Of a DNA stretch of 33,656 nt, positions 480 to 19,868 are shown piece by piece (the stretch's first letter is position 1; each line of letters starts with the position of its first letter). The notes below the pieces were generated by a model that was given only the letters and a program-made list of their open reading frames with translations, did not search any database and was not told where the DNA came from. Source of the stretch: Alphaproteobacteria bacterium (GTDB lineage Bacteria > Pseudomonadota > Alphaproteobacteria > JAEULF01). Where the stretch lies: the NCBI GenBank assembly GCA_016793965.1, contig JAEULF010000414.1:1-33656 (forward strand), given 5' to 3'. A program made the position numbers and the translations under genes.

Positions 480-2732
480 ATGACGAGTGCCGGCGCAATC
501 GACGCCGAGACGAGCTGGCGCTCAACTTTGGCGCGCGATCCGGCCGACGTGCCGGCTCTTCGCGCGATGGTTGATCTTTGCTACAGGCAGGGTCGGCATG
601 AGGAGATCGCAGCCTTGGCGCGCGCTGCCTGCGCCGCGCCTGCGCGCAGCTACGAGGTGCTGCGGCTCTGCGCCGAGACGCTCCTTTCTCTGCGCCGATT
701 TGCGGACGCGATCGAGATCCTCGCGGCGCTGCACAAGCTCGTGCCGCGCGATCACCCGATCGTCGTCAACCTTGTCTACGCATGCATGCGTGGCGGCCGT
801 GCGGATCTCGCGGTCCACTTCGCCAAGACCGGGCTGCTGGTTGATCCCTCGGACGGTCAGCGCCGCCTCCATCTGATCGGTACCTGCTTGGCTGCTGGAC
901 GCTTCGACGAGGCTCTCGAGTATGCGACGGCTTGGCTATCCGCGCCGGCTCCGGGCGACTTGGCGTCCCTGCGCACGGTCTGCGAGACCTTCAACGCCTA
1001 TGGGATCTACGGTGCGGCACTGAAGCTGTGCCGTATGCTCAGGGTCCACGGCGTCGCCGACCCGCGACAGCGGAGCCTCGAGGCGGTCCTTCTCGTCAGG
1101 ACGGGCGAAAGGGAAGCCGGGCTTGAGATGATCGGCGAGGCGCTTCGGCTGGCTCCGGACGAGCCGGCGGTGCTGTTGATGCATTGCGACTTGCTGATCG
1201 CATGCGGCAAGACCAGCGAGGCGGCGGACCGTCTGCAGGCGCTCGTGGGCAGGTTTCCTGACGATGCCGCCTATCGCACCGCGCTCGTGCTGGCGCTCAA
1301 CACGGCGGGCCGCAAGGACGAGGCGGCGGCGGTTGCCGCGGGCCTGGTGGCGACGGAGGAGACGCGCGCCGACAAGCTGCCGCTCGTGCTCGGGATCCTG
1401 TGCGAGTCGGTCGATCTCGACTTGCTGCCCCAGGCGCAGGCTTTCTTCGACGCTCTCGACAGGGCGCGCGCGGAGACCCTCAACTCATCGTTCCTTTGGG
1501 TGCTTGCCTGGTGCGACGACATCGCGACGACGATCCGTTGCCGCCAGCTGCACCGGCGCTGGGGCGAGTCCATAGAGGCTGTCGCGCCCGCTGCGCTTCC
1601 GCCCGCGACGCCGCCAGCCAGCCCGGCCATCGCCTTGCGCCGGCCGCTGCGGCTCGGCCTGCTGTCGTCGGACCTGCGCAATCACTCCGTCGGCCGCTTC
1701 GTCGAGCCGCTGCTGCGCAACCACGATCGCGACCGCCTGCGCATCCACGTCTACAGCCCGTTCACGGGCCCGGCGGACGAGATCGAGGCGTTCTTCGCGC
1801 AGTGCGTTGATGCGTATGCGCGGGTCGACCGCCTCGACATGCCGTCGCTGGCACAGAGGATCCGCGGCGATGCGGTGGACATCCTCATCGACCTGAACGG
1901 TTTCACCCAGTTCAGCCGTCTGCCGATCGTCGCGTGGCGGGTCGCGCCGATCCAGGCCGAATGGCTGGGCTATCCGTTCACGACGGGCCTTGCGGCCATG
2001 GACTATCTCGTCGCCGACCGCTTCCTGCGCCCGGAGTCCGAAGAGCTGCTCGGGGAGAAGGCGCTGGAGCTGGACGGCGCATGGGTTGCGTTCGCGCCGG
2101 CGATCAAGGATCCCATACCGAGCGAGCCGCCGAGCGTCGCGAGCGGGCATGTGACGTTCGGAACGCTCAACAACGTCTATAAGTACGGCCGCGCGTGCTT
2201 CGCTCACTGGGCCGCAGCGCTCAAGGCCGTCCCGGGCTCCCGATTCCGCGTGGTTCGGCCCGAGGTGTCGCGGCCTCGCGTCCGTGCGAACATCATCAGG
2301 GCATTTGCGGCGGAGGGCGTCGCTGGCGACCGCATCGAGTTTCTCGACAACCACGCCGCCGGGATCCCTTACTGGAGTTGCTACGACGCCATAGACATCT
2401 CGCTGGATACGTGGCCACTGACGGGCGGCACCACGACGGTGGACAGCATCGATCGGGGCGTGCCGGTCGTCTCGCGGTTCGGCCCAGCGGTGCACCAGCG
2501 CATCAGCTACGCGATCCTCGCGCATTGCGCCGTGCCGGAGCTCGCGGTGCGCTCGCTCGAGGAGTATGCCGCACTCGCCGCCGCGCTCGCGCAGGATCGG
2601 GAGCGCCTAGCAGCCTGTCGCCGCGACTTGCAGCGTCGGATCCGGCGTTCGGCGCTGTGCGACCATGACGGCTTCGTGCGGAGCTTCGAGCGCGCGATGG
2701 AAGCGGTCGCCCGCCGCCACGGCATCGCCTAG
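480..2732 (+). CDS. TPR-containing OGT/SPINDLY-type (GT41-like) glycosyltransferase, 750 aa, 'TWPLTGG' subtype
   Basis: Predicted cytoplasmic O-linked glycosyltransferase. Residues 1-370 are helical TPR-like repeats (for example RFDEALEYATAW). Residues about 388-750 are the OGT-like catalytic region. The first Rossmann half has SSDLRNHSVGRF (His402, at the position of the OGT catalytic-region His), DLNGFT and EWLGYPFTTGL. The UDP-binding half has LNNVYKYG (Lys568), SLDTWPLTGGTTTVDS (640-656) and VHQRISYAILAH. Where most array members have GHT it has GFT; human OGT has GYT there, so this need not abolish activity. The start at 480 follows AGGAAGGGAG; there is no signal peptide. It is the only array member divergent from flagellin, and its TAG stop overlaps the stop of the convergent gene. 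The catalytic part is closest to that of the 10561-12705 gene. Flagellin as substrate is inference from position. Confidence 0.85.
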   Translation: MTSAGAIDAETSWRSTLARDPADVPALRAMVDLCYRQGRHEEIAALARAACAAPARSYEVLRLCAETLLSLRRFADAIEILAALHKLVPRDHPIVVNLVYACMRGGRADLAVHFAKTGLLVDPSDGQRRLHLIGTCLAAGRFDEALEYATAWLSAPAPGDLASLRTVCETFNAYGIYGAALKLCRMLRVHGVADPRQRSLEAVLLVRTGEREAGLEMIGEALRLAPDEPAVLLMHCDLLIACGKTSEAADRLQALVGRFPDDAAYRTALVLALNTAGRKDEAAAVAAGLVATEETRADKLPLVLGILCESVDLDLLPQAQAFFDALDRARAETLNSSFLWVLAWCDDIATTIRCRQLHRRWGESIEAVAPAALPPATPPASPAIALRRPLRLGLLSSDLRNHSVGRFVEPLLRNHDRDRLRIHVYSPFTGPADEIEAFFAQCVDAYARVDRLDMPSLAQRIRGDAVDILIDLNGFTQFSRLPIVAWRVAPIQAEWLGYPFTTGLAAMDYLVADRFLRPESEELLGEKALELDGAWVAFAPAIKDPIPSEPPSVASGHVTFGTLNNVYKYGRACFAHWAAALKAVPGSRFRVVRPEVSRPRVRANIIRAFAAEGVAGDRIEFLDNHAAGIPYWSCYDAIDISLDTWPLTGGTTTVDSIDRGVPVVSRFGPAVHQRISYAILAHCAVPELAVRSLEEYAALAAALAQDRERLAACRRDLQRRIRRSALCDHDGFVRSFERAMEAVARRHGIA

Positions 2733-4579
2733 GCCCGATCAGCGTACCAGGACGCGACGGCGTCCTCGATCGCGCGCGCGAGGCCGGCGGCATCGAGGAG
2801 CGGCGATGCCGACATCCTGTCGCGCAACTGCGCGCGCAGCGCTCGCCTCCGGCCGGCATCCGCGGCAAGCTGCGTCGCGATCGACACGAAGGCGTCGTCG
2901 TCAACTCCAACCAGGTCGGCGAGGCCTACGGCGCCGAGGATGCTGGCGCCGACGCGGCTGGCATGCGAGCGGCCCGCCCGCGTGACGACCGGCACGCCCA
3001 TCCACAGGGCCTCGACCGTGGTCGTCGTGCCGGCATAGGGGAAGGTGTCGAGGGCGACGTCGACGCCGGCATAGCGAGCGAGATGGTCTGCGTGGTGCGC
3101 GGTGCGCCCGATCAGCTCGATGCGGGGCAGCGCGATGCCGGCGGACGCGAGACGCTGGAGAAGGGTTGCGCGGACGGTCTCGTCGTCCAGTCCCGGCGCC
3201 TTGAGCACGAGGCGGCTGGAGGGAACGGCCAGCAGCGTCCGGGACCAGAGCGCGATGACCCGGTCCGACAGCTTGGCCAGGGCATTGAACGAGCCGAAAG
3301 CGAAAGGGGCGCCGGCCGGGCGCGCCGCGACCGGCGGCGCCGTAGGCGGCGACCAGGCGAGGAAGCATCGCGGGAGCCTGACCAGGCGTTCTCCGCCTGC
3401 CTGCTCTTCCTGCCCGGGCGGATCGGCGTCGGCGTCGGTCAGGCGCAGGTCGATCTCATCGAGCCCCGTGCGATCCGGATAGCCGAGCCACGTTGCCTGC
3501 AGCGGCGCTGCGTGGTGCGCCAGGATGCCCAGGCGATTGCCTTCTGTGTGGCCAGCCAGGTCGATGACGGCGTCGATGCCCGCGGCGCGCAGCGCGCTCG
3601 CGACCTCCTGGTCGCTGCGTCCGGCAGTCTCCATCCAGGCGTCGGCGCGAGCGCGGATCCGCTGGGTCATCTCGTCGCTCCGGCCGAGCGACTCGTAGCA
3701 GCACGTCACGGATACCCGCGCCCTGTCGTGCGCCTCCAGCACGCCTGCGAAGAACCATGCGACGGAGTGCGCGCGGAAGTCGGGCGAGAGATAGGCGATC
3801 CGCAGCACGTCGCCGCTGCCGCGCTGCCGCGGCGCAGGTCCAGGCTCTGCCGGTCGGCGGCGGGCATCGCGCCAGCGGCGCAGATCGGCGGCGAGCGCGG
3901 TCGGGTCGTCGGTGACGTAGTGGCGCGCCAGCAGGAGATTGTCCCACGCGTCCGGCCGCTGGGGATCGAGCGCCACGGCCTGCTCGAAAGCCCCGACAGC
4001 GCCGGCGGGATCGCCTGCGCCGGCGCGTGCACGACCGAGATTGTACCAGGCGTCAACGAGCGTCGGTGCCAAGCGGACGGCGTCCTCGCAGGCGGCGACG
4101 GCGTCCGCGATCCGGCCGAGCGCCTCCAGCGGGCGCGCGCGATTGGCGCGGTACGATGCGACCGCAGGCGCCAGCGCGACGGCGCGATCGAGGGCGGCCA
4201 GCGCCTCGGAAGCGCGCCCCAGCCGCGTCAGGCAGATTCCCAGGTTGTTGAGCGCTGCGGGAAAGGCGGGCTGCAACCGCACGGCGGATCCGAGGCACGC
4301 TGCCGCGAGGTCGAGGGCATCGCGCGCCAGCGCGATGCTGCCGCGGTTGTAGTGCGCGGTCGGGCTGCTCGGGTCGGCTTCCGTCGCCGCTGCGGCGAGG
4401 GTCAGGGCGTCCGCTCCGTCACCCCGCTGGTGGCGCAGGACGGCGAGCATCGTCAGCGCGCGGGCATCCCTGGGGGCGTCGCGGAGGACGCGGCGGTACA
4501 TGCCCTCGGCAGCCTCCAGCTTGTCGGCACGATGCAGCGCAGTGGCCTCGGCCAGAAGCTTCGCCGCGTCAGCGGGCAT
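2729..4579 (-). CDS. TPR-containing OGT/SPINDLY-type (GT41-like) glycosyltransferase, 616 aa
   Basis: Last gene of the leftward glycosyltransferase operon. Residues about 7-210 hold roughly six consecutive 34-residue TPRs with textbook spacing (AHYNRGSIAL, AALNNLGICL, AWYNLGRARA). The catalytic region runs from about 258 to 616: YLSPDFRAHSVAWF (His271), DLAGHTEGNRLG (341-351), ATWLGYPDRTGL, FGSFNALAKLSD (Lys436), and the phosphate-binding DTFPYAGTTTTVEAL (511-525). All motifs expected for an active enzyme are present. The ATG at 4579 overlaps the end of the upstream gene by 11 bp, so translation is probably coupled. The TAG stop (2729-2731) overlaps the TAG of the facing gene in CTAG, leaving no room for a terminator between them. 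The substrate is unknown; flagellin or another surface protein is inferred. Confidence 0.86.
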   Translation of the reverse strand: MPADAAKLLAEATALHRADKLEAAEGMYRRVLRDAPRDARALTMLAVLRHQRGDGADALTLAAAATEADPSSPTAHYNRGSIALARDALDLAAACLGSAVRLQPAFPAALNNLGICLTRLGRASEALAALDRAVALAPAVASYRANRARPLEALGRIADAVAACEDAVRLAPTLVDAWYNLGRARAGAGDPAGAVGAFEQAVALDPQRPDAWDNLLLARHYVTDDPTALAADLRRWRDARRRPAEPGPAPRQRGSGDVLRIAYLSPDFRAHSVAWFFAGVLEAHDRARVSVTCCYESLGRSDEMTQRIRARADAWMETAGRSDQEVASALRAAGIDAVIDLAGHTEGNRLGILAHHAAPLQATWLGYPDRTGLDEIDLRLTDADADPPGQEEQAGGERLVRLPRCFLAWSPPTAPPVAARPAGAPFAFGSFNALAKLSDRVIALWSRTLLAVPSSRLVLKAPGLDDETVRATLLQRLASAGIALPRIELIGRTAHHADHLARYAGVDVALDTFPYAGTTTTVEALWMGVPVVTRAGRSHASRVGASILGAVGLADLVGVDDDAFVSIATQLAADAGRRRALRAQLRDRMSASPLLDAAGLARAIEDAVASWYADRA

Positions 4580-7500
4580 GCGCGCCGTCCAGCGCGGCCG
4601 CCGCCGCCATCCTGAAGGCTCCCTCGATCGCGCGCGCGAGGCCGTCCGCGTCGCCGAGCGGCGAGTCGCGAAGCATCCTTGGCAGCGCGGTCCTCAGCGT
4701 CCTCCGCCGTGCGGCGTTGCGGGCGAGATCCGCTGCGATGCGGACGAAGTCGTCATGCGACCGAGCGACGAGGTCTGGCAGCCCGATGGCTGAGAGGAGG
4801 CTGGCGCCCACGCGGCCGGCATGGGCGTCGCCCGCCAAGGTGACGACGGGCACGCCCATGAGGGTGGCCTCGCAAGTCGTCGTGGTGCCGGCATAGGGCG
4901 TGGTGTCGAGAGCGATGTCGATCGATGCGTAGAGCTCGAGGTGGCCGGAGCGCGACTCGCTGTGCGGCAGCATCTCGATTCGGTCCCGTGGCACGCCATG
5001 CTCGGCGAAGGACTGCGCGACGCGGCGGCGCACGCCCGGGTCCTTGAGCGGCGAAGACTTCAGCACCAGGCGGGACTGCGGCGTCGCACGCATCGCGCGG
5101 GCCCAGAGGGATACGGTTGTGGGGGTCAACTTGGTCAGGTTGTTGAACGAGCCGAAGACCACGTGCCCCTCGGGGCGCTGGCTCGGCGCGGGCGCGTCTG
5201 CCGGCGGACGGTAGGCGAGAAAGCAGCGCGGCAAGCGGACCAAGCGCTCGGAGTGCAGGCGATCGAAGCGCGGCTCGTCCGGGTCCGCCGTCGCATCCGT
5301 GATCCGCCAGCCGATCCCCGGGACGCCGGTGGTGTTGGCGTAGCCGAGATAGCTCACCTGGACGGGGGCCGGACGGCGCGCGAACGTCGCCAGCCGATGG
5401 TCGGCGGTGTGACCGGACAGGTCGACCAGGACATCGATGCCGTCGCCGGCGATGCTGTCCGCAAGCGCGATCGGGTCGATCGCTCGCACGTCCGACCAGC
5501 GCCAGCCCTTGCTGGCGCAGATCGCCCGGAATGCGTCCGTCGTCGCATCGGGGACGACCACGGTCGAGTAGCATGTCACGGCGACGGCGGCCGGATCGTG
5601 GGCGTCGAGCAGGGGGGCGAGGAAATAGGCGACGGAGTGGGTACGGAAGTCGCCGGACAGGTAGCCGATCGAGAGCGGCGCGCCGCGGTCGCGCGGACGC
5701 GCGGGCGGCCGCACCACAGGAGCGCCGGCGGCGGCGGCAATCGCGGCGCCGACGTCGACGTGCCGGCGGCGCACCTCGTCCGGCGCGAAGCCGTCATGCG
5801 CCGTCGCGGTGATCAGCGCGTTCGAGCCGGCGGCGGACCCGGCCCCGCGCAGGGCGATCGCGCGGTCGAAGGCGTCGATCGCCTCGGCGAGGCGGCCGGC
5901 GTTCTTCAGGGCGTTGCCGCGATTGTACTGCACCTCGTAGTCGTCCGCCCGCAGACGCGCTGCCGTCTCCAGGGCGACGAGCGCCTCGTCGGGCCGGTCG
6001 TCCTTGACGAGCAGGACACCGAGGTTGAGCCAGATGCGCGCCTCGGTCGGGCAGAGCCGGGCGGCTTCCCGGAAGTCGGCTTCCGCTTCTGCCCAGCGCG
6101 CGACCATGGCGCGAGCGTTGCCGCGGTAATGCAAGGCAAGGCCGCGCTCGCGCGGGTCGACCCCGGGGACGGCGGCGAGCAGGCGGTCGATCGCCGCCTC
6201 GGCTGCCGTCGCATCTCCGGCGCCGATGCAGGCGACGCTGTGCGCGAAGGCGATGGACGGAGAGGTCGGGCGCAAAGCGGCGGCGCGCCGGAGCATGGCG
6301 ACCGCCAGAGTGTGCTTCCCCAGGCCAAGGAGCTGGCGGCCTGCGCCCTCGATGATGTCTGGGTCGTCGGGCCGCAGGCGGATGGCTTCGTTCCAGACCG
6401 CCAGTGCGGCAGATCTGTTTCCTGAGCGTTCGAATTCGAGCGCGCGCTGGTGCAGCGCATCGGCCTGGGCCGCGAGGCTCGCCGGATGTGCGCTCGAGCG
6501 GCACCAGCCCTGCCACAGCGAGCGCGCCGCCGACTCGATCTCGCCGGCGAGGCGGCGCGCGTCGCCCAGCCTGGATCGGGCCAGTCTCGATCGCAGCCCG
6601 GCACGGATTACGGCAAGGTTCGCGCGGTCGCTCACCAGGTTGCGCGCGATCGACACGTATGATTCTTGGTCCCTTGCGACGAGTTCCGGCATGCCCACTG
6701 CATCGAGCAGGCTCGCGCCGACGCGTCCGGGATGCAGCGCTCCCGCCAGCGTCACCACCGGGACGCCCATGGCGAGCGCCTCGCATGTCGTGGTAGTGCC
6801 GTTGTAGGGGAACGGGTCGAGGGCGACGTCGATGCGTCCGTAGAGCGCGAGGTGCGCCGCTCGGTCAGGGAGGTAGCCGACGCACTCGACGCGGTCCGCC
6901 GCGATGCCTCGCCCGGTGAAAGCGGCTTGCACGCGGTCGGCGGTCTCCCGGTCGTCGAGCCCATGGCTCTTGAGGACCAGGCGAGCCGCGGGCACGGCGC
7001 GCAGGACCTGGGCCCACAGCTCGATCGTCGCGCCGGTGAGCTTCGGCAGCATGTTGAAGGAGCCGAAGACGGGAGGCTGCCCGGCCGCGCAGGGGAGCGG
7101 TCCGGGCTCGGGCAGCTCGGCATCCGCGACGAAAGCATGGAAGCCGCCGGCGAGACGCCAAGTCGGCTCCAGGCCCGGCCTGTCGCTGCCGGGCGGATCG
7201 GCGATCGCGTCGCTGAGCCTGGCGTCGAAGGCCTCGAGACCGGTCGCGTAGGGATACCCCAGCCATGTCAGCTGCACGGGCGCAGGGCGCCGTGCGAACA
7301 GCGTGAGCCGGTTGCCGGCCGTGTGCCCTGCCAGGTCGACCAAGACGTCGACGCCGTCGGCGCGGACCGTGGCCTCGGCCTCCTCGTCTCCGGCATGGGC
7401 GATGAGGCGGAAGCCGTCCGCGGCAGCCGCGAGCTTCTCTGTCATAGCGTCGGGCCGCGGGTTGGCAGCGTAAAGGATGATTCGGTGCCGCTCGCGGTCG

Positions 7501-8534
7501 TGCGCGCGAAGGACGGGGAGAAGGAACGTCGCGACGGAGTGATGCCGCAGGTCGGGCGAGACATACCCGATCGTCAGCGTGCGGTCGGGGTCGCGGCTGT
7601 TCGCGTGCGGTGCGCGGTGCGCGCGGCGCGATCGTTCGCAACGCTCGCGCCAGAGGAGAGCGAGCCGGTCCGGCTCCTGCGGCTCCTGCGCGTCGTAGAG
7701 GGAGCTGAGGCAGGCGTTGGACAGCAGGGCGGCGTTGCCGGGGTCGAGAGCGAGCGCTCCGGCGAGCGCCGCCCGCGCCTCCTCGTGCCGCGCCTGAGCC
7801 TGCAAGGCGCCAGCGAGGTTCATGCGCGCCTCGGCCAGGCCTGGCTTGCCGCGCAGCGCGCCCTCGAACTGCGCGATTGCTGTCCCGATGCGACCCTCGT
7901 TCTTCGAGATGATGCCGAGATTGTTGAGCGCGTCGGGATGCTCGGGATGCAACCGCAAGGCATCGCCGTAGGCGGCCTTCGCCTCCTCGGTCCGACCCGC
8001 GGACCGCAGGGCATTGCCGAGGTTGATGTAGGCGCCTGCCGCCCTTGGAGCGGCAGCGACTGCCTCCCGCAGGCTTGCGATGCCCTCTTCTGCGCGCCCT
8101 GACGCCGCCAGCGCGACGCCGAGATTTGCCAGCGTGTCCGGCCGGTCGCTTGCACCTGCCGGGAGCAGCGCGAGCGCGCGCTGCAAAGCCGACGCTGCCT
8201 GCGCATGCCGGCCAAGGTGCACCAGAGTGCCGCCCAAATTGTTCCACGCGCCTGCCATCTCTGGCCGGCGCGCGACGGCCTGCTGGAGATGCCGCTCCGC
8301 TTCGTTCCAGCGGCCTGAGGCGATCTCGATGGTGCCGCGCAAGAAGTCGATCGCACCGTCCTCGGGCACGGCGGCCGCAGCCGCGTCGCAGGCGGCGGCG
8401 GCCTCAACGAGGCGACCTGCCTGCATCAGCCGCTCGATCAGCGCCACGTGGGCGCGCACGTCATGCGGGCGTGCCGCCGCCGTCTGCTTCAGCGCGGCGA
8501 CCTCACGATCATCGAGTGCGGCCGTGGTCGTCAT
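4569..8534 (-). CDS. Double-module TPR glycosyltransferase: two complete OGT/SPINDLY-type units in one 1321-aa protein
   Basis: Two full enzymes lie in one reading frame. Module 1: TPRs at about 30-270 (AWNNLGGTLVHLGR, AYINLGNALRSAGR, ALNNLGIISKNEGR), then a catalytic region about 318-678 with YVSPDLRHHSVATF (His332), DLAGHTAGNRL, TWLGYPYATGL, FNMLPKLTG (Lys498) and PYNGTTTTCEAL (576-587). Module 2: TPRs at about 690-895 (IWLNLGVLLVKDDR, QYNRGNALKNAGR), then a catalytic region about 953-1310 with YLSGDFRTHSVAYF (His966), DLSGHTADHRL, SYLGYANTTGV, FNNLTKLTP (Lys1135) and PYAGTTTTCEAT. The seam is near residue 680 (about base 6495). Usual family members here are 540-750 aa. The start at 8534 is ATG overlapping the upstream TGA as ATGA; the open frame extends 101 codons further upstream, but that part is antisense-like, arginine-rich sequence inside the neighbour's coding region. 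It is coupled to genes on both sides. Confidence 0.86.
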   Translation of the reverse strand: MTTTAALDDREVAALKQTAAARPHDVRAHVALIERLMQAGRLVEAAAACDAAAAAVPEDGAIDFLRGTIEIASGRWNEAERHLQQAVARRPEMAGAWNNLGGTLVHLGRHAQAASALQRALALLPAGASDRPDTLANLGVALAASGRAEEGIASLREAVAAAPRAAGAYINLGNALRSAGRTEEAKAAYGDALRLHPEHPDALNNLGIISKNEGRIGTAIAQFEGALRGKPGLAEARMNLAGALQAQARHEEARAALAGALALDPGNAALLSNACLSSLYDAQEPQEPDRLALLWRERCERSRRAHRAPHANSRDPDRTLTIGYVSPDLRHHSVATFLLPVLRAHDRERHRIILYAANPRPDAMTEKLAAAADGFRLIAHAGDEEAEATVRADGVDVLVDLAGHTAGNRLTLFARRPAPVQLTWLGYPYATGLEAFDARLSDAIADPPGSDRPGLEPTWRLAGGFHAFVADAELPEPGPLPCAAGQPPVFGSFNMLPKLTGATIELWAQVLRAVPAARLVLKSHGLDDRETADRVQAAFTGRGIAADRVECVGYLPDRAAHLALYGRIDVALDPFPYNGTTTTCEALAMGVPVVTLAGALHPGRVGASLLDAVGMPELVARDQESYVSIARNLVSDRANLAVIRAGLRSRLARSRLGDARRLAGEIESAARSLWQGWCRSSAHPASLAAQADALHQRALEFERSGNRSAALAVWNEAIRLRPDDPDIIEGAGRQLLGLGKHTLAVAMLRRAAALRPTSPSIAFAHSVACIGAGDATAAEAAIDRLLAAVPGVDPRERGLALHYRGNARAMVARWAEAEADFREAARLCPTEARIWLNLGVLLVKDDRPDEALVALETAARLRADDYEVQYNRGNALKNAGRLAEAIDAFDRAIALRGAGSAAGSNALITATAHDGFAPDEVRRRHVDVGAAIAAAAGAPVVRPPARPRDRGAPLSIGYLSGDFRTHSVAYFLAPLLDAHDPAAVAVTCYSTVVVPDATTDAFRAICASKGWRWSDVRAIDPIALADSIAGDGIDVLVDLSGHTADHRLATFARRPAPVQVSYLGYANTTGVPGIGWRITDATADPDEPRFDRLHSERLVRLPRCFLAYRPPADAPAPSQRPEGHVVFGSFNNLTKLTPTTVSLWARAMRATPQSRLVLKSSPLKDPGVRRRVAQSFAEHGVPRDRIEMLPHSESRSGHLELYASIDIALDTTPYAGTTTTCEATLMGVPVVTLAGDAHAGRVGASLLSAIGLPDLVARSHDDFVRIAADLARNAARRRTLRTALPRMLRDSPLGDADGLARAIEGAFRMAAAAALDGAHAR

Positions 8535-10567
8535 GCGCTTGCTCGGCGCCCCGCGACGGCCGGCCAGGCGGCACGGAGCGAGTCGAGGAAACCCTGCGCA
8601 AACCCCTTGGCGTCGCAAAGGGATGAGCGCGCCATCGTAGGACGAAGCTCGCAGCGCAACCGGTCGAGCCGGCCACGGTCCGTCGCCAGGGTTGCCGCGA
8701 TCCGGACGAACGACTCCGCGTCGTCGCTGACGAGGTCGTCGAGCGACAGGCGGGCCAAGAGGCTCGCGCCGACGCGCGAGGCATGCGTCCCGCCGCGCCG
8801 TGTCACGACCGGCACGCCCATCCAGAGCGCCTCGCAACTCGTCGTCGTGCCGTTGTAAGGCCAGGGATCCAGGGCGACGTCGATCTCGCCGTAGAGGGCG
8901 AGGTGGTCGGCGCTGGCCTTCTCGTAGCCGCGGAACGCGACCCTCTCCGGTGCGACGCCCTGGGCTGCGAAACGCGCGCGCTGGGCATGCTGAACCGCCG
9001 GGTCCCCGCTGCCGAAGCCCTTGAGCAGCAGCGTCGAGCCGGGCACGTCGTTAAGCGCCCGGGACCACATGGCGACGGTGGCATCGCTGATCTTGGCGAG
9101 ATCGTTGAACGACCCGAAGGCGACCGGTCGACCCGCGGGGCGTGCGGACGGCGGCGGCGCGGTCGCGTCCGCGGCGAAGCACAGGAACGGGCCGGGCAGC
9201 CTGACCAGGAGCTCCGTCGCGCCGTCCTCTGAGTCGCCGGGCGGGTCGGTGATCGCGTCCGCGAGCCGTACGTCGATCGCGGCCACCCCCGTGGTGTTCG
9301 GGTAGCCGAGCCACGTGACCTGGAGCGGTGCCGCGCGATGGGCGAGGGCGCCGAGCCTGTGGCCGGTCATGTGGCCGGTGACCTCGACGAGAACGTCGAT
9401 GCCGTTGGACCTCACGCACGCCGACAGGGCAAAGTCGTCTAGGCCGCCGACTTCGCGCCATGTGCTAGCCGAGGCGCGCAGTCGAGCGGTCGTGTCGTCT
9501 GCGTCGGCTGTCGTCGAGAAAGCATGCACCGTCGCCTGCGCCCGATCGATGCCCTGCCAGAGCGGCTCGAGAAAGCGGACGATCGAGTGCGCGCGCAGGT
9601 CGGGCGACAGGAAGCCGATGCGCAGGGGACGACCTGTCGGAACGGGACCCAGGGGTTGCTGGGTCCAGGTCGGCGCGAATCGTCGAGCCCAGGCTTCGTG
9701 ACGCAGGCGCAGGCTCGTCCGGTTCTCCTCGGCGTCGCAGTTGGCGCGCAGCAGGGCGCCAGATGCGCTCGCGAGATCGTCCGGGTCGAGCGCGAGGGAA
9801 GTCTCGTGCATCTGCCGTGCTGCGCCCGCGTGGCCGCAACGCTGCGCGATCCAGCCGAGCAAGTAGAGCATCTCCGCCGCCGCGCCCTTGTCCGTCCGGG
9901 AGCAGCGTCCGTCGCCGACCAGGGCCGACAGCGCCGGCAGGTTCGCCAGGCCGGCGCGCAGCTCGGCCTCGGCCAAGGCGAAATGGCCCGCATTGTGCAG
10001 CAGCTTGGCGAGCGCCAGCCGAGCCTTCGCATGCGCCGGATCGCCGCGCAGCGCCGCGCGATAGGCTTCGGCCGCGTCTTCCTTGCGGCGCATGGCCTGC
10101 AGCGCCAGGCCGCGCGCATAGGCGACCGCAGCGCCACGCCCCGGGAGCTGCGCGGCGCGGTCGAGGTCGGCGAGCGCCTTCGCCGGGTCGCCGCGCGCGA
10201 GCCGGGCATTGGCGAGGTTGACCAGGATCTCCGGATCGGCCGGATCGAGGCCTGCGGCGACGGCATAGGCGTCGATCGCCTCGTCGAGCCGCCCGACGTC
10301 GCGCAGCATCTTGGCGCGATTGAACGCGATTGCGGCGTCGCGCGGATAGGCGGCGGCGAGCTCGCCCAGCGACTCGATCGCGCCCTCGCGGTCGCCGAGG
10401 CGGAATCGGCATAGCGCGTCGAGCGACGTGGCGTCCTTGACGGCGAGCCGATCGGCGAGCGCCGGCGCCAGCAGCGCGCGCGCGCGCGCTGCGTCGCCCT
10501 GCTTCCACGCGTCGAGCGCCGCAGCGAAGGCGCTGCGCTGCGTCGAGGAAGTGGCGCCTTTCACCAT
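8531..10567 (-). CDS. TPR-containing OGT/SPINDLY-type (GT41-like) glycosyltransferase, 678 aa
   Basis: Fourth gene of the leftward operon. Residues 10-260 are TPR-like; the stretch 60-110 with YPRDAAIAFNRAKMLRDVGRL is nearly the same as in the 10561-12705 product. The catalytic region is about 313-678: FLSPDLRAHSIVRF (His327), EVTGHMTGHRLG (a GHM variant of the usual GHT), TWLGYPNTTGV, FNDLAKISD (Lys492), and DPWPYNGTTTSCEAL (567-581). This is the common PY(N/A)GTTT catalytic subtype. The chosen ATG at 10567 starts within the last codons of the previous gene (7-bp overlap, ATGGTGA). A longer frame exists but would run through the neighbour's C-terminus. The TGA at 8531-8533 overlaps the next ATG. 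Flagellin as substrate is inferred from the neighbourhood only. Confidence 0.85.
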   Translation of the reverse strand: MVKGATSSTQRSAFAAALDAWKQGDAARARALLAPALADRLAVKDATSLDALCRFRLGDREGAIESLGELAAAYPRDAAIAFNRAKMLRDVGRLDEAIDAYAVAAGLDPADPEILVNLANARLARGDPAKALADLDRAAQLPGRGAAVAYARGLALQAMRRKEDAAEAYRAALRGDPAHAKARLALAKLLHNAGHFALAEAELRAGLANLPALSALVGDGRCSRTDKGAAAEMLYLLGWIAQRCGHAGAARQMHETSLALDPDDLASASGALLRANCDAEENRTSLRLRHEAWARRFAPTWTQQPLGPVPTGRPLRIGFLSPDLRAHSIVRFLEPLWQGIDRAQATVHAFSTTADADDTTARLRASASTWREVGGLDDFALSACVRSNGIDVLVEVTGHMTGHRLGALAHRAAPLQVTWLGYPNTTGVAAIDVRLADAITDPPGDSEDGATELLVRLPGPFLCFAADATAPPPSARPAGRPVAFGSFNDLAKISDATVAMWSRALNDVPGSTLLLKGFGSGDPAVQHAQRARFAAQGVAPERVAFRGYEKASADHLALYGEIDVALDPWPYNGTTTSCEALWMGVPVVTRRGGTHASRVGASLLARLSLDDLVSDDAESFVRIAATLATDRGRLDRLRCELRPTMARSSLCDAKGFAQGFLDSLRAAWPAVAGRRASA

Positions 10568-12705: not shown

Positions 12706-14315
12706 CGCTTGCCCTCGGCGCACCAGCCTGCCCAGGCCGCGCGATAGGCGGATTCGACGGCGCGCGCCAGCCCGACGCCATCGCGCAGCGGCGAGCTTGC
12801 GACCCTGTCGCGCATCGACCCGCGCAGCGCCGCGCGGCGTTCGGGATCGCGAGCAAGGCTCGCGGCGATCGCGACAAAGGCATCGGCGTCTTCGGCGATG
12901 AGCTGCGGCATGCCGGCGGCGGCCAGCAAGCTTGCGCCGACCCGGCTGGCGTGGCGGTCGCCGCGCAGGCTGACCAATGGCACGCCCATCCACATCGCCT
13001 CGCATGTCGTCGTCGTGCCGTTGTAGTGCGCGGGGTCGAGGGCAATGTCGATCTCCCCATAGGTGCCGAGATGGCTGGCCTGGGTTGCGACGCGGCCGCG
13101 CAGGTCGAGCCGGTCGCCGGCAATGCCGCGTGAAGCGAAGCGTCGCTGCACGACCTCCCGCACGGACGGGTCGGCAAGGCCGAAGGCCTTGAGCAGCAAT
13201 CGCGATCCCTCGACCTCCTGCAAGACCCGCGACCAGAGCGCCACCGTCCCGTCCGACAGCTTCGGCAGCGCGTTGAACGAGCCGAACACGACCGGCCCCG
13301 GCGGGCGCGGAGCGACGGCCGGCGCGTCCGGGTCGGGGTCGAAAGCGTGCAGGGGGCGCGGCAGGCGTGCGAGTCGTTCCGTGACCCAGCGCTCTGTACC
13401 CGGCGGGTCCGTGACCGCATCGGCGAGCCGGATGTCGATCGCGGCCAGGCCGGTCGTGTCCGGGTAGCCGAGCCAGCTTGCCTGCACCGGCGCCGGACGC
13501 CTGGCGAAGGCGCCCAGGCGATTTCCTGCCGTATGGCCGGCGAGGTCGATCGCGATATCGACGCCGTCGTCGCGCATGCGCTCTGCCAGAGCCGCGTCGT
13601 CGAGAGCGCGCGCGTCCGTCCAGTCGTCGGCGGAAGCGCGCAGCGCCGTCGTCGTCCCGTCGTCGCGCTCGCCGACCTGGTAGCAGTGCACGCGGAAGCG
13701 CGGCCGGTCATGGGCGCGCAGGAGGGGCGCGAAGAAGCGAGCGACCGAGTGGCGGTTGAAGTCGGGGGACACGTAGCCGAGCGTCAGGCGCCGATCCGGA
13801 TCGCCCGCCCTGTCCGGCCGCTTTGGCGCCGCCGGCGCGCCGCGCCACGCGTCCGCGCCGAAGGCGCGATGCGCGTCCGCGCCGAAGGCGCGATGCGCGT
13901 CGAGCCGCTCCTGCGCTCCGATCCCCTCGTCGTAGGCCATGCAGAGGAGCGCGTTCGACCGGAGATCGAGCGATTGCGGCGCCAGCGATGACGCCTGCCG
14001 CGCGGCGGCCCGCGCGTCCTCGAAGCGTCCGAGATGGAGGAATGCCTCGGCGAGGGACGCATGGACGTCGGCATCGTCCGGGTCCAGACGGATCGACTCC
14101 TCGAGGCAGCGCACCGCGACGCCGACCTTCTCCTGGAGCCAAAGCACCAGGCCAAGGTTGCCGATGGCGGCGGCATGGCTGCGATCGGCGTCCAGAGCGG
14201 CGCGAAATGCGCGCGCCGCCTCGTCCAAACGTCCCGCCGCCTTGTGCGCCAGTCCGGCGTCGTTCAAGGCGTCGGCCGAGGAGCGATCCTGCCGGCGAGC
14301 GGGGCGCGACGTCAT
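12702..14315 (-). CDS. TPR-containing OGT/SPINDLY-type (GT41-like) glycosyltransferase, 537 aa (shortest member)
   Basis: Second gene of the leftward operon and the smallest member, with only about three TPRs (residues 14-115; ALNDAGLAHKAAGRL, AIGNLGLVLWLQEK, VHASLAEAFLHLGR). A short linker carries a perfect 8-residue duplication (AHRAFGAD). The catalytic region is about 176-537: YVSPDFNRHSVARF (His189), DLAGHTAGNRLG, SWLGYPDTTGL, FNALPKLSD (Lys352), DPAHYNGTTTTCEAM (427-441) and ASRVGASLL. All key motifs are present; the protein is short because of fewer TPRs, not truncation of the catalytic domain. The ATG at 14315 overlaps the upstream TGA as ATGA, and its own TGA overlaps the next ATG. 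With fewer TPRs the acceptor-recognition groove would be shorter, so its acceptor may differ from the others; that is inference. Confidence 0.85.
   Translation of the reverse strand: MTSRPARRQDRSSADALNDAGLAHKAAGRLDEAARAFRAALDADRSHAAAIGNLGLVLWLQEKVGVAVRCLEESIRLDPDDADVHASLAEAFLHLGRFEDARAAARQASSLAPQSLDLRSNALLCMAYDEGIGAQERLDAHRAFGADAHRAFGADAWRGAPAAPKRPDRAGDPDRRLTLGYVSPDFNRHSVARFFAPLLRAHDRPRFRVHCYQVGERDDGTTTALRASADDWTDARALDDAALAERMRDDGVDIAIDLAGHTAGNRLGAFARRPAPVQASWLGYPDTTGLAAIDIRLADAVTDPPGTERWVTERLARLPRPLHAFDPDPDAPAVAPRPPGPVVFGSFNALPKLSDGTVALWSRVLQEVEGSRLLLKAFGLADPSVREVVQRRFASRGIAGDRLDLRGRVATQASHLGTYGEIDIALDPAHYNGTTTTCEAMWMGVPLVSLRGDRHASRVGASLLAAAGMPQLIAEDADAFVAIAASLARDPERRAALRGSMRDRVASSPLRDGVGLARAVESAYRAAWAGWCAEGKR
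13848..13895. repeat. Two perfect tandem copies of a 24-bp unit, plus a partial third
   Basis: The unit CGCGTCCGCGCCGAAGGCGC (first 20 bases) occurs at 13848-13871 and again, identical, at 13872-13895. Its first six bases recur at 13896-13901. The period is 24 bp, so the frame is kept and the encoded linker gains eight residues (AHRAFGAD twice). It lies between the TPRs and the catalytic domain of the 537-aa glycosyltransferase. Confidence 0.9.
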
Positions 14316-16156
14316 CGCTCGTCCTCGGGCATCCGGGACTGCGCGGCGCACCACTCGCGCCATGACGCGCGCAGGGCATCGCCCAGCGCTTGGGCAAGGC
14401 GAGCGCCGTCGCACAGAGACGACCGTGCCATGCGCTCGCGCAGGCACGCGCGCAGCTCGATGAGGCGGTCGGGCGTCGATGCCAGCCCCGCGGCAGAGCG
14501 CACGAACGCCTCCGACTCCGTCGCCACGAGATCATCCAGGCCGATCGCGCCGAGCAGGGACGCGCCGACACGGGCCTGCGGAACGGTGCCGCACAGCGTC
14601 ACCACCGGCACGCCCATCCACAGCGCCTCGCAGGTCGTCGTCGTGCCGGCATAGGGGGTTGGGTCGAGCGCCACGTCCATGTCGGCGTATCGAGCCAGAT
14701 GGTCGCGCTCGGCCGGCTCGAAGGCCGCGATCGCGACGCGGTCGGATGGCACGCCGACGGCGGCGAAGCGGGCGCGCTGCGCGGCGGCGATCCGCGGGTC
14801 GTCGAGGCCATGCGCCTTCAGCAGCAGCCGGCTTCGCGGCACGGCGGCGAGCGCTTGCGCCCACAGCTCAACGGTCGCGTCGGTCAGCTTGTGAAGCGCA
14901 TTGAACGACCCGAACGTGAATGGCGCCCCGCCGGTGCTCGGCGGCGGCGTCACGGCGGGAGAATCCGGGTTGGGGCGGAAGCAGAGGAAGGGTGCTGGCA
15001 GACGGAGCAGCCGTTCCTGGCTCTCGCTCTCCGCGCCGATCGGATCGACGACCGCATCGGTGATGCGTCGCAGGCAGTCGTCGAGCCCCGTGCCGGTCGG
15101 GTATCCGATCCAAGCCAGCTGGATCGGGGCCGGATGCCGTGCGAGGACGCCGATTCGACCGCCGGCCGTATGGCCGGACAGGTCGATCAGGACGTCGATG
15201 CCGTCGTCGCCGATGGCTTGAACCGCGGCCGCATCGTCGCCGCCGGCGATCGAACGGAGCGCTTCGGAGGCCGCGACCAGCGCGGCTGTCATGCCATCCC
15301 GTCGCGCGTCGTTCTTGTAGAGGATTGTCCGGCCGGCGAAGTGCGCGCGGTTCGTCAGCAAGGGCAGCAGGAAGCGCGCGACCGAATGGTTGCGCAGGTC
15401 GCCGGAGAGGAACCCGACCGAGAGCGGCCGATCCGGATCGGCCGCGTTGCGCCATTGGCGCTGGCGCGGCACGTCGCGCGCAAAAGTCGCGGCGCAGGCG
15501 CGATGCCGCGCCGCCAGAGTGGCGCGTGTCTCGCGCGGATCGGTCAGCGCGAAGAGAAGGCGCGCCTGCGCCACGTGCGCATTCGCCGGCTCGGCGGCGG
15601 CGGCGTCGTCGAACAACTGCGCAGCGTCCGCGAATGCGCCGCGCTGCAAGGCGAGGCTGGCCAAGACCACCGGGCTCCAGCCGTCGTCCGGCCAGCGCCG
15701 CTTGATGTAGCGGAACGCGTCCTCGGCGACGGCGTAGCGGCCGGCGGAGCGCAGGCTTGCGGCGAGGTTGTGCCAGGTCCCGCGGTTGTCGGGTTCGCGA
15801 CGGATCGCCTCCCGCCAAGCTGCGGCCGCCTCGTCATGGCGTCCTGACGCGTCACGCAGCGCAGCAAGCCGGGTCCATGGCCGGGCGCCCGCATGCGCCA
15901 GCTCCGCAGGACGCGCCAAGGCTGCTTCCCATCGCGCGATCGCGTCCTCGATCGCGCCGCGCGCTGCCGCGACCTCGGCCCAGTTGGCCAGGATGCGCGG
16001 CTCGCCCGGAGCGAGTCGGTGCGCCGCCGCGTAGGCAGACTCGGCAGCGGCGAGATCGCCCGAGCGCTGCGCGGCGACGCCGTCGGCGAATGCGCTCTCG
16101 ATTGCCGCGGCGATGCCGGCCTGTCCCATGGTGGTGTTGATGGTCGCGACGGCCAT
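14312..16156 (-). CDS. TPR-containing OGT/SPINDLY-type (GT41-like) glycosyltransferase, 614 aa; first gene of the leftward operon
   Basis: Promoter-proximal gene of the six-gene leftward operon. Residues about 22-205 hold TPR-like repeats (YAAAHRLAPGEPRILANWAE, TWHNLAASLRSAGR, VVLASLALQRGAFADA). The catalytic region is about 244-614: FLSGDLRNHSVARF (His257), DLSGHTAGGRIG, AWIGYPTGTGL, FNALHKLTD (Lys423), DPTPYAGTTTTCEAL (498-512) and ARVGASLL. Motifs are intact. The start at 16156 (MAVATINTTMGQ) is preceded by GGAAG on the minus strand. A start up to 56 codons earlier is possible but would use sequence without family likeness. The 261-bp spacer upstream separates it from a divergent maoC-like gene and should contain the operon promoter. 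The TGA overlaps the next ATG. Confidence 0.85.
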   Translation of the reverse strand: MAVATINTTMGQAGIAAAIESAFADGVAAQRSGDLAAAESAYAAAHRLAPGEPRILANWAEVAAARGAIEDAIARWEAALARPAELAHAGARPWTRLAALRDASGRHDEAAAAWREAIRREPDNRGTWHNLAASLRSAGRYAVAEDAFRYIKRRWPDDGWSPVVLASLALQRGAFADAAQLFDDAAAAEPANAHVAQARLLFALTDPRETRATLAARHRACAATFARDVPRQRQWRNAADPDRPLSVGFLSGDLRNHSVARFLLPLLTNRAHFAGRTILYKNDARRDGMTAALVAASEALRSIAGGDDAAAVQAIGDDGIDVLIDLSGHTAGGRIGVLARHPAPIQLAWIGYPTGTGLDDCLRRITDAVVDPIGAESESQERLLRLPAPFLCFRPNPDSPAVTPPPSTGGAPFTFGSFNALHKLTDATVELWAQALAAVPRSRLLLKAHGLDDPRIAAAQRARFAAVGVPSDRVAIAAFEPAERDHLARYADMDVALDPTPYAGTTTTCEALWMGVPVVTLCGTVPQARVGASLLGAIGLDDLVATESEAFVRSAAGLASTPDRLIELRACLRERMARSSLCDGARLAQALGDALRASWREWCAAQSRMPEDER

Positions 16157-16417: not shown

Positions 16418-16837
16418 ATGCGCGGCTATCACTACGAAGACCTCACAGTCGGCATGACCGGCGAATACGCGCGCACGGTGACGGAAGCGGATATCGTGAT
16501 GTTCGCGGGCATCACGGGCGACACCAATCCCGTCCATCTCAACCAGATCTATGCCGAGAGCACGATCTTCAAGACGCGGATCGCGCACGGATCCCTGCTC
16601 GCCGGCTACATCTCGTGCATCCTCGGCACGATCATGCCGGGCCCAGGCTGCATCTATTTGAGCCAGACCTTGCGCTTCAAGGCGCCGGTCCGTATCGGCG
16701 ACACGGTGGTGGCGACGGTGACCGTCGTCGGCAAGAACGACGAGAAGAAGCGCCTGACGTGCTCGACCACCTGCATGGTGGGCGAGCGCACCGTCCTGGA
16801 GGGCGAAGCCGTGGTGATCGCCCCGTCGCGTGCGTGA
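16418..16837 (+). CDS. MaoC-like (R)-specific enoyl-CoA hydratase family protein, 139 aa
   Basis: Single hot-dog fold hydratase of the MaoC/PhaJ type, which adds water to trans-2-enoyl-CoA (or a related thioester) to give the (R)-3-hydroxyacyl form. Visible features are the hydratase-2 motif GDTNPVHLN (Asp35, His40), where Asp and His are the catalytic pair in PhaJ, then FKTRIAHGSLLAG (51-63) and the hot-dog strand LRFKAPVRIGDTVVATVTV. The length of about 140 aa is normal for single-domain members. The start at 16418 gives MRGYHYEDLTVG, the family's usual N-terminus; an upstream in-frame extension (to 16283) has no such likeness. It reads toward ribF with an 83-bp gap. The physiological substrate (fatty acid, PHA or other acyl-CoA) is not readable from sequence. 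Confidence 0.9.
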   Translation: MRGYHYEDLTVGMTGEYARTVTEADIVMFAGITGDTNPVHLNQIYAESTIFKTRIAHGSLLAGYISCILGTIMPGPGCIYLSQTLRFKAPVRIGDTVVATVTVVGKNDEKKRLTCSTTCMVGERTVLEGEAVVIAPSRA

Positions 16838-16920: not shown

Positions 16921-17889
16921 ATGGACAGTGCGGTCGCTGACCCTGCGGTGCCGCTGACGGAATTGCGCTGGCCTGGCCCTGCGCCGGCACGCCTTCGCGG
17001 CGCCGCGATCGCCGTCGGCAACTTCGACGGCGCCCATCTCGGTCATCGCGCCGTGATCGAGGAGTGCCGGCGGCATGCCGCCACGTCGGGCGTCGTCACG
17101 TTCGAGCCGCATCCGCGCCAGGTCTTCGCTCCCGACGCGCCGCCCTTCCGGCTGACGGCGTGGCCCGCCAAGGCGCGCCGGCTGGCGAGCTTCGGCGCTG
17201 ACTTCGCGCTGGTCATCGGGTTCGATCGCGCGTTCGCGAGCCGGTCGGCGGAATCGTTCGTCGACGAGGTGCTTGTCGCCCATCTCGGCCCTGCGCATGT
17301 CGTGGTCGGCGCGAACTTCGCCTTCGGCAACGGCCGCCGGGGAACGCCCGATATGCTGCGCGCGCGGCTCGCCGCGCAGGGCATAGGCATGACCTGCATG
17401 GCCCCTGCGACGGGGCCGGACGGACAGGCCTACTCCTCGACCCGCGTCCGTGCGGCGCTCGTGGCTGGCGATCCCGCTGGCGCGGCGGCGCTGCTGGGCG
17501 CTCCTTGGGAGGTCGAAGGCAGGGTCGGCGAGGGCGACCGGCGCGGCAGGGTGCTCGGCTTCCCGACCGCGAACGTGCCGCTGGGCGACCACCTGCGCCC
17601 GCGTTTCGGCGTCTATGCCGTCGAGGCCGGCATCGTCGGCGCGCCAGGCGCGGCGCCGCGCTGGGTGAAGGGCGTCGCGAACATCGGCAGCCGTCCGACG
17701 GTGGGCGGCACGGAGCCGCGCGTCGAAGCCCATCTCTTCGATTTCGCGGAGGACATCTACGGCAAGACGCTGCGCGTCCGCCTGATCGACTTCCTGCGCG
17801 CGGAACGGAAGTTCGACGGTCTCGACGCGTTGAAGGCGCAGATCGCCGCGGACAGCGCCGAGGCGCGCCGTCGGCTCGCCCGCCGATGA
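16921..17889 (+). CDS. ribF: Bifunctional riboflavin kinase/FAD synthetase, 322 aa
   Basis: Converts riboflavin to FMN (kinase, C-terminal) and FMN to FAD (adenylyltransferase, N-terminal). The N-terminal nucleotidyltransferase has GNFDGAHLGH (33-42, the HxGH-type ATP site), TFEPHPRQVF (60-69), NFAFGNGRRGTP (132-143) and SSTRVR (172-177). The C-terminal flavokinase has GRVLGFPTANV (209-219, the PTAN motif), NIGSRPTVGG (254-263), EAHLFDF and LRVRLIDFLRAERKFDGLDAL. The length is typical of bacterial RibF. The start at 16921 gives the expected N-terminus before the first strand. Its TGA overlaps the ATG of a glycosyltransferase gene (ATGA), so the two are probably translated together. In many Alphaproteobacteria ribF lies near ileS, as it does here at a distance of about 3.7 kb. 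Confidence 0.97.
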   Translation: MDSAVADPAVPLTELRWPGPAPARLRGAAIAVGNFDGAHLGHRAVIEECRRHAATSGVVTFEPHPRQVFAPDAPPFRLTAWPAKARRLASFGADFALVIGFDRAFASRSAESFVDEVLVAHLGPAHVVVGANFAFGNGRRGTPDMLRARLAAQGIGMTCMAPATGPDGQAYSSTRVRAALVAGDPAGAAALLGAPWEVEGRVGEGDRRGRVLGFPTANVPLGDHLRPRFGVYAVEAGIVGAPGAAPRWVKGVANIGSRPTVGGTEPRVEAHLFDFAEDIYGKTLRVRLIDFLRAERKFDGLDALKAQIAADSAEARRRLARR

Positions 17890-19868
17890 CGGCGAACGGC
17901 AACCCTGCCGGCGAGATCGCCCGTATCGAGGCCATGCTCGCCGCGCAGGGCGCGAGCGCCGGCCTGCTGCGCCGCCTCGGGAACCTCAAGGAGGAGCGCG
18001 GCGACGTCGCCGGCGCGATCGCCTGCTACAGGCGCGCGACGGAGAGCGCGCCGCATGATGCCGGAGCCTGGTGTGACCTCGCGATCGGGCTCGAGCAGTC
18101 GGGCGACCTCGCCGGAGCGCAGGACGCATTCCGCCGCGCGATCGCCGCAGACGAAAGCTTCGCGGACGCGCACGCCAATCTCGGCCTGCTGCTGCAGCGG
18201 TCCGGCCGGCACCCCGAGGCGGTTGCCGCGCTGGAGCGTGCCGCGTCCCTCGAACCGAGCGCCGCGTCGTTCCACAATCTCGGCAACGCCCAGCGGCTCG
18301 CCGGCGACGGGGCCTCGGCGCTGGCGAGCTATGCCGAGGCGCTGAAGCATGACCCGTCGTCGGCGATCACCGCGACGGCGCTGGCCGATATTCTGGCCGG
18401 GCGCAGCCAGGCGGGTCTTGCCGACGCTCTCTTGCGGCGCGCGCTCGCGGTCGCTCCCAGCATCGGCGTCGCCTTGCGACGCAGCTTGCTGCTCGCCCAG
18501 ATCGAGGACGGCGCGGCAAGCATCGCTGCCCGGCGGACGGCGATCGCCGAGGGCTTCGCGGCCCTCAGGGCCGCCGGGGCGACGATCCGGGACCCCTTCG
18601 CCGAGGTCCCGGGCACGACCTTCTACCTCGCCTATCACGGCGAGAACGACCGTGCGCTGCAGTCCCAGATCGCGCGCTTCTACCTCGATGCCTGCCCGGA
18701 CCTCGGCTGGTCGTCGCCCCATCTCGCAGACCGGGCGAATCGCCCGCGAGGACCGGTGCGGCTGGCGCTGATCTCGGAGAAGTTCCGCAACCATACGGTC
18801 GGCAAGCTGACCCTGGACCTCGTCCGCGCGCTCGATCGCAGCCAGGTCGAGCCGCTGCTGTTCGTCGTGTCGCCCAAGGACGATCCCGTGCAGCGCGCGT
18901 TCCGCGCGACGGCGCCGACCGTTGATCTCGCGCCGGATCTCGCGACGGCCCGCCGGCAGGTGTCCTCTGCGCGCCCGGACGTCGTGCTCTATCCCGACAT
19001 CGGGATGAACTTGCTCACATACTTCATGGCGTTCGCGCGGCTGGCGCCGGTGCAGTGCGTGAGCTGGGGCCACCCCGACACCACGGGCATCCCGGCGCTC
19101 GACTACTTCCTGACCGCCGCGGAACTGGAGCCGGACGATTTTCGCGAGCATTACAGCGAGACGCCGATCGCGCTACCGGCGTTGCCCACCGTCTACCCCC
19201 GCCCCCCCGAGCCGGCAGAGGCGTCGCGCGCCGATCTCGGCTTGCCGGACGACGCTACGCTCTATGTCTGCCCGCAGACGCTGTTCAAGCTTCACCCGAG
19301 CTTCGATGCGGTGCTGGCGTCGATCCTGCGCGGCGATCCGCGCGGCCTGCTGGTTCTGCTCGCGGGGAGCGAGCCGTCTTGGGTCGGCCCGCTCCTCGCC
19401 CGGCTGGGGCGCGCGATGCCCGACGCGGTCGGCCGCGTCAGGGTCCTTCCTGGCCTGAGCTCGGACCGGTTCCTGGCTCTCCTGCGGCTGGCGGACGTCG
19501 TGCTCGATACGCCCGTCTTCGGCGGCGGCAACACCAGCTTCGAAGCGTTCGCCATGGGCGCCGCGGTCGTCACCTGGCCGGGTGCCTTCATGCGCAGCCG
19601 CGTGACCGCCGCGCTCTACAGGCGCATGGGGATCCCAGACGCGATCGTCTCGGGGCCGGAGATGTATGCCGCAACGGCCTTGCGCCTCGGCCGCGACCCG
19701 ACCATCCGCGCGGCGCTGCGCGCGCGCATCGCGGGTGCGCGGCATCGGCTGTTCGATGACGCTGCGGGGGCGCGCGCGCTTGGACGGTTCTGCAAGGCCG
19801 TGGCGGCGGCGCATGCAGCAGGCAAGAGCCTCGGCGGTTGGGAGGACGTGCCGCTCTGGGAAGGCTAG
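17886..19868 (+). CDS. Divergent TPR-containing OGT/SPINDLY-type glycosyltransferase, 660 aa, coupled to ribF
   Basis: Residues about 26-195 carry TPRs (GNLKEERGDVAGAIACYRR, AWCDLAIGLEQSGD, AHANLGLLLQRSGR, FHNLGNAQRLAGD). The catalytic region is about 290-660: LISEKFRNHTVGKL (His303), LYPDIGMNLLTYFMAFARLAP (where the others have a DL-GHT motif), SWGHPDTTGIPALDYFLT, CPQTLFKLHPSFD (Lys468), and DTPVFGGGNTSFEAFAMGAAVVT (541-563) in place of GTTTTCEAL. It is thus a third subfamily, clearly distinct from the seven left-hand genes, and the FKLHPSFD region looks more like classical OGT/SPINDLY. ATG at 17886 overlaps the ribF TGA; a longer open frame inside ribF is shadow. It may have a different substrate or acceptor, or act in flagellin modification with the others. 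No function can be assigned from sequence. Confidence 0.83.
   Translation: MTANGNPAGEIARIEAMLAAQGASAGLLRRLGNLKEERGDVAGAIACYRRATESAPHDAGAWCDLAIGLEQSGDLAGAQDAFRRAIAADESFADAHANLGLLLQRSGRHPEAVAALERAASLEPSAASFHNLGNAQRLAGDGASALASYAEALKHDPSSAITATALADILAGRSQAGLADALLRRALAVAPSIGVALRRSLLLAQIEDGAASIAARRTAIAEGFAALRAAGATIRDPFAEVPGTTFYLAYHGENDRALQSQIARFYLDACPDLGWSSPHLADRANRPRGPVRLALISEKFRNHTVGKLTLDLVRALDRSQVEPLLFVVSPKDDPVQRAFRATAPTVDLAPDLATARRQVSSARPDVVLYPDIGMNLLTYFMAFARLAPVQCVSWGHPDTTGIPALDYFLTAAELEPDDFREHYSETPIALPALPTVYPRPPEPAEASRADLGLPDDATLYVCPQTLFKLHPSFDAVLASILRGDPRGLLVLLAGSEPSWVGPLLARLGRAMPDAVGRVRVLPGLSSDRFLALLRLADVVLDTPVFGGGNTSFEAFAMGAAVVTWPGAFMRSRVTAALYRRMGIPDAIVSGPEMYAATALRLGRDPTIRAALRARIAGARHRLFDDAAGARALGRFCKAVAAAHAAGKSLGGWEDVPLWEG

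Follow-up and report, generated by a model that had tools for sequence, protein, structure and literature searches.

The locus described here raises the question of which protein a whole row of TPR-bearing glycosyltransferases, encoded next to a flagellin gene, would modify. Homologues of OGT and SPINDLY are common in bacteria, and acceptors are known for few of them. The window is the whole contig C19 (33,656 nucleotides) of the alphaproteobacterial MAG G000, which has a size of 4.28 Mb and is 75% complete and 2.7% contaminated.

Gene layout and conservation of the locus

The locus contains eight TPR-glycosyltransferase genes with nine GT41 catalytic modules in total (Table 1). All eight proteins score above the Pfam cut-offs for Glyco_transf_41 (84-307 bits; cut-off 25) and TPR, with profile E-values of 8e-24 to 2e-91, and in this search they match GT41 and not Maf. 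A genome-wide search for Maf with PF01973 gave no match, with a model that is unsuitable here (its controls respond in archaea only). Judged by homology, the fold of the array proteins is already fixed. Seven of the genes (g1-g7) cover positions 480-16156 free of gaps, and adjacent genes on the minus strand share 4-11 bp, mostly as ATGA. From g7 to g2 (16156 to 2729) the minus-strand genes form one coupled run of six, each start overlapping the preceding stop, and g1 is convergent with this run and divergent from the flagellin gene. A maoC-like gene and ribF sit between the run and g8. The eight genes and nine modules of the original prediction, the gap-free tiling and the coupling of g8 to ribF are thus borne out by Pfam profiles, coordinates and module counts. 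The MaoC-like dehydratase is outside the glycosylation system, and the genes of the right flank (ileS, DUF3035, two M16 peptidases, MCP, PGI and mutL) look unrelated to the array. Between g8 and ileS lies an ORF (20617-21432, minus strand) that has no Pfam match and whose end resembles a small membrane protein.

Table 1. Features of the left part of the window, with positions counted from the first nucleotide of the contig.
Feature	Position	Strand	Description
Flagellin, N-terminal fragment (MTLNIISNFAANTALRNL)	2..148	-	Pfam Flagellin_N 9e-7, above cut-off; runs off the contig
Divergent intergenic region flagellin/g1	149..479	.	331 bp; start codons at 148 and 480
g1	480..2732	+	TPR-GT41 type B (FGTLN..YK, PLTGGTTT); head to head with flagellin
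g2	2729..4579	-	TPR-GT41, SPINDLY-like; 4-bp convergent overlap with g1 stop
g3	4569..8534	-	TPR-GT41-TPR-GT41, 1321 aa; SPINDLY-like modules g3a (6498-7577) and g3b (4590-5675)
g4	8531..10567	-	TPR-GT41, SPINDLY-like
g5	10561..12705	-	TPR-GT41 type B; g1 paralogue, coupled within the SPINDLY-like run
g6	12702..14315	-	TPR-GT41, SPINDLY-like
g7	14312..16156	-	TPR-GT41, SPINDLY-like; minus-strand run starts here
MaoC-like dehydratase	16418..16837	+	Pfam MaoC_dehydratas 1.5e-24
ribF, bifunctional riboflavin kinase/FAD synthetase	16921..17889	+	stop overlaps g8 start (ATGA)
g8	17886..19868	+	TPR-GT41, divergent GGGNTS type; outside array clades; start within ribF stop (ATGA)

The flagellin portion inside the window comprises about 49 codons of the N-terminus. 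The right end of contig C458 carries a flagellin C-terminal fragment (SRLLDLDVAQEITRFTSLQILVQAGISVLAQANQLPQNLLRLF) in an orientation compatible with the C19 fragment, and this is probably the missing 3' part of the window flagellin. Sigma-28 and sigma-54 motifs were sought in the gap between flagellin and g1, and none was convincing there. A second, divergent full-length flagellin-like gene (~440 aa) was seen on a contig without a GT41 gene (G000:C313, L128, about 14100-15400, minus strand).

Another contig of the same MAG (G000:C115, L009, 1-11316) is collinear with window 7531-18895 (11.3 kb) and 86% identical to it, and the gene order g8-ribF-maoC-g7-g6-g5-g4-g3 is common to both. Evidently, C115 comes from a second strain or species, and the MAG mixes two related ones. 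The comparison runs from the N-terminal part of g3 to that of g8, and window 1-7531 rests on one contig. Between the two contigs, dN/dS was 0.11-0.22 in g4, g5, g6, g7 and the N-terminal parts of g3 and g8 (0.09 in ribF), which indicates that purifying selection keeps these six glycosyltransferase genes. Chance is excluded by the profile E-values, by the low dN/dS and by a second contig, assembled independently, on which the order recurs.

Active sites and relationships of the modules

We mapped the nine modules on ten active-site positions of Arabidopsis SPINDLY (AtSPY; PMC9715652). Six of them (g2, g3a, g3b, g4, g6 and g7) are identical to AtSPY at all ten (D491, H495, S496, N661, K665, H728, Y744, T747, T748 and T749), and the catalytic identity of the SPINDLY-like modules to g6 is 49-55%. 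The full set is not present in g1, g5 and g8. In both g1 and g5, Y744 is replaced by L and T747 by G, with additional replacements of S496 by A in g5 and of H728 by Y in g1, and g8 retains the AtSPY residues at H495, K665 and T749 only. The His and Lys equivalent to H495 and K665 are invariant throughout, as is T749, and T748 is kept in eight of the nine (N in g8). The nucleotide loop reads GTTT in the six SPINDLY-like modules, GGTTT in g1 and g5, and GGGNTS in g8. In SPINDLY itself, K665 is essential and the His is thought to be structural (PMC9715652). The predicted GT41/SPINDLY-type identity with intact active sites therefore agrees with both the Glyco_transf_41 profile and the residue mapping, but the 'catalytic-region His', though conserved in all nine modules, is probably structural and not the base (PMC9715652). 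Active-site identity with SPINDLY leaves the donor unfixed.

A phylogeny of the modules had been proposed as a check, and two trees, one of 246 modules and a maximum-likelihood tree of 78 modules, agree in outline. In both, g4, g6 and g7 cluster with g2 nearby, at weak inner support, and g3a and g3b have their closest kin in other genera. The fusion in g3 is not singular, since two-module ORFs also occur in G229, G062 and G258. Together, g1 and g5 form a separate clade (SH-aLRT 100) with the motifs FGTLN..YK and GGTTT ('FGTLN-GGTTT'), here named type B. The trees separate the SPINDLY-like from the type B modules and place g8 outside the array clades, with scattered GT41 copies of this MAG, in which more modules are found on C405 (two), C125 and C114. 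On sequence grounds, the array is a mosaic of six SPINDLY-like modules, the type B pair g1/g5 and the HMW1C-like outlier g8.

Within type B, the maximum-likelihood tree unites the five copies from G268, and likewise the three from G365, which means that duplication next to flagellin took place more than once. One of the three tandem type B modules beside the flagellin of G365 (L174, G365:C15, 9837-10916, minus strand) is interrupted, either by a stop codon in frame or by a change of frame, and is possibly a decaying copy. Distant relatives of the type B catalytic domain (26-30% identity) are present on two IMG/VR contigs (L172 and L173), the only two in the viral collection.

Linkage to flagellin and the likely acceptors

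Of 386 genomes of the class, 8 gave a match to a type B profile (E at most 1e-110). In all seven whose context is visible (G000, G080, G193, G268, G019, G127 and G365), the type B gene and a flagellin gene stand head to head; among these, G019, G127 and G365 made no contribution to the profile. The start codons of the two genes are 124-1126 bp apart; in the eighth genome, G110, the contig stops about 300 bp upstream of the type B gene. The seven paired genomes span six families. Since the type B genomes share ancestry, these pairings are conserved linkage by descent and not seven independent events. A GT41 neighbour was absent from all 20 other flagellin-bearing stretches examined, many of which have the same flagellin N-terminal type. 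Type B lies by flagellin wherever its context is visible, whereas flagellin often lies without GT41, an asymmetry that is predicted for a dedicated but optional modifier. The variable regions of the type B-linked flagellins consist of 20-38% Ser/Thr. The flagellin link that was originally predicted has become much stronger for g1 and g5, and an enzyme of the g1 kind is probably a dedicated flagellin-decorating enzyme.

We consider it fairly probable that the locus serves the O-glycosylation of proteins in the cytoplasm, with flagellin at its centre, and that type B g1/g5 are flagellin-dedicated and the six SPINDLY-like modules diversify the modification. The TPR superhelices would hold the acceptor chain (flagellin) in the cytoplasm, and the C-terminal GT41 (GT-B) domains would move single nucleotide-activated sugars onto Ser/Thr before export. 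The divergently paired g1 and its paralogue g5 would represent a flagellin-dedicated GT41 clade. The six SPINDLY-like modules may have originated by tandem duplication and recruitment of two older lineages, and could add sites or other sugars, or serve other flagellin forms. We infer enzymatic activity, flagellin as acceptor and cytoplasmic timing. The conserved gene pairing and the precedent of FlmG suggest that flagellin is most likely the acceptor of g1, and probably of g5. Flagellin is also a plausible acceptor of the six SPINDLY-like modules, since type B g5 is coupled in their run and arrays of this kind stand next to flagellins in other genera, but modification of other proteins has to be taken seriously as an alternative.

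Contigs of other genomes were scanned with a four-module alignment, the nine-module alignment being too diverse. A module lies within 12 kb of a flagellin in at least 9 of 35 genomes, against about 2 expected. SPINDLY-like arrays adjoin flagellins in G113 (6 modules, 3 flagellins) and G158 (4 modules, 2 flagellins), and arrays of 3-6 modules stand beside flagellins in at least three other genera. Clusters of 5-12 modules with no flagellin nearby occur within the class in G054, G258 and G203, and also in Desulfobacterota (L019, L031/L033 and L035). The expectation of an expansion far exceeding the usual size was therefore not upheld. The proposed survey of array size against flagellin number revealed no clear relation either (G080 and G127 have 1 module and 2 nearby flagellins, G268 has 5 modules and 1 adjacent flagellin). 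The cluster in G054 (L140/L141, G054:C54, 40000-75308), with 12 GT41 modules in 35 kb and no flagellin found there, is larger than that of the window. The loci of Desulfobacterales (L019), Desulfatirhabdium (L031/L033) and Desulfonema magnum (L035) are one-strand tandem arrays of 6 to at least 9 SPINDLY-like TPR-GT41 modules, and no flagellin was recognised near them.

Arrays without flagellin nearby count against a flagellin-centred reading and would suit a division of tasks, in which g1, perhaps with g5, alone modifies flagellin, and the SPINDLY-like modules act on other proteins, of the cytoplasm or the surface, and owe their site to tandem duplication of a resident gene. The separate clades of type B and SPINDLY-like modules point the same way, as does the position of the run g7-g2 on the strand opposite g1, as a separate transcription unit, so that g1 alone adjoins the flagellin. 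The many same-type flagellins without a GT41 neighbour and the fragmentary state of the window flagellin also speak against centring the locus on flagellin. Such a division is possible but somewhat unlikely, and two observations oppose it: g5, of type B, is translationally coupled within the SPINDLY-like run, and SPINDLY-like arrays do adjoin flagellins, in G113 and G158.

It seems very improbable that one module adds the first Ser/Thr sugar and the rest extend it stepwise to an oligosaccharide. The differing active-site classes in one locus could mean differing donors and acceptors, but TPR arms and the protein-O-glycosyltransferase fold are kept in all nine modules, six of these are alike at the ten mapped positions, which gives no hint that the acceptor has shifted from protein to sugar, and characterised GT41 enzymes add single sugars to proteins (family knowledge; PMC9715652). 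Recent tandem duplicates without separate functions, or an assembly in which strain variants were joined into a chimera, are hardly credible and already largely refuted: the clustering of g4, g6 and g7 (less surely g2) and the two strains in a MAG of limited completeness would fit, but the SPINDLY-like modules have diverged to about half identity, the six tested genes have dN/dS values far below 1, and the gene order is repeated on the second contig.

The donor sugar of the favoured, flagellin-centred system may be narrowed from gene content. Known Maf enzymes depend on the nonulosonic acid pathway. A search for NeuB found none in this MAG (75% complete) or in 6 of the 7 other type B genomes (91-100% complete); G365 alone has it. 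With NeuB missing in 7 of the 8 type B genomes, it is unlikely that the donor carries a pseudaminic-type sugar or any other nonulosonic acid. A gmd gene (GDP-deoxysugars) is present in this MAG. As a sign of GDP-fucose as donor, gmd is not decisive, being present in 6 of the 8 type B genomes. No single donor is indicated by gene content.

Comparison with known systems

The enzyme families and their fold are known already, and so is the idea that TPR glycosyltransferases modify flagellin. Two things are apparently new: the type B clade, whose genes keep a head-to-head arrangement with flagellin in genomes that mostly lack NeuB, and the mosaic composition of the array. The open literature searched contained no account of a GT41 array next to flagellin, nor of the pairing seen for type B; subscription journals were mostly outside this search, which makes it weak evidence of novelty. 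The pairing in seven genomes offers a concrete acceptor to test, mostly where the nonulosonic acid pathway is missing, and paralogues of about 50% identity under purifying selection could be used to test how site specificity is programmed by TPR arms. More speculatively, and on present evidence unlikely, type B could be an undescribed flagellin-dedicated GT41 subfamily working without nonulosonic acids, to which a whole SPINDLY-like array was recruited in this lineage, so that several different O-linked sugars per flagellin, each from separate enzymes, would make up a combinatorial flagellin glycan code.

The outlier g8 is weakly related to HMW1C-like N-glucosyltransferase (3q3e, 8p0o; phmmer E 1e-15 to 1e-17), but unlike that enzyme it carries TPRs, and it matches human OGT as well. 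Against the NCBIfam NGTferase model it reaches 61 bits, far under the cut-off of 1000; the NCBIfam search returned this weak match and below-cut-off TPR look-alikes, and nothing else. Thermobaculum terrenum OGT (5djs) and Xanthomonas XcOGT (2jlb) are bacterial TPR-GT41 enzymes too, but are not placed here in flagellin-linked arrays. The closest solved relative of g1 is 5djs, which in the alignment lacks a Lys equivalent to K665. Flagellar glycosylation islands of Clostridium have TPR-bearing glycosyltransferases by flagellin genes that are predicted flagellin modifiers, but these are of GT2 or Maf type and not GT41 (PMC13317340).

In Caulobacter FlmG, a TPR domain binds flagellin and a C-terminal GT-B domain glycosylates it in the cytoplasm, for which pseudaminic acid made by NeuB is needed (PMC7591256). 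The parallel drawn in the original prediction holds for the N-terminal TPR arm, the C-terminal GT-B domain, the flagellin linkage and, presumably, the bacterial class. It is weaker than was stated, as FlmG is a single gene and depends on pseudaminic acid and this MAG has no recognised NeuB. FlmG was compared by its published features, and type B might be closer to FlmG than appears here. Arabidopsis SPINDLY, a GT41 protein O-fucosyltransferase (PDB 7y4i, 8dtf), likewise combines TPR and GT41 and is the closest solved relative of g6 (E 3e-111). Compared with it, the array is bacterial, varies in arm length and is clustered by flagellin, and in g1, g5 and g8 some residues differ from those with which SPINDLY contacts the donor.
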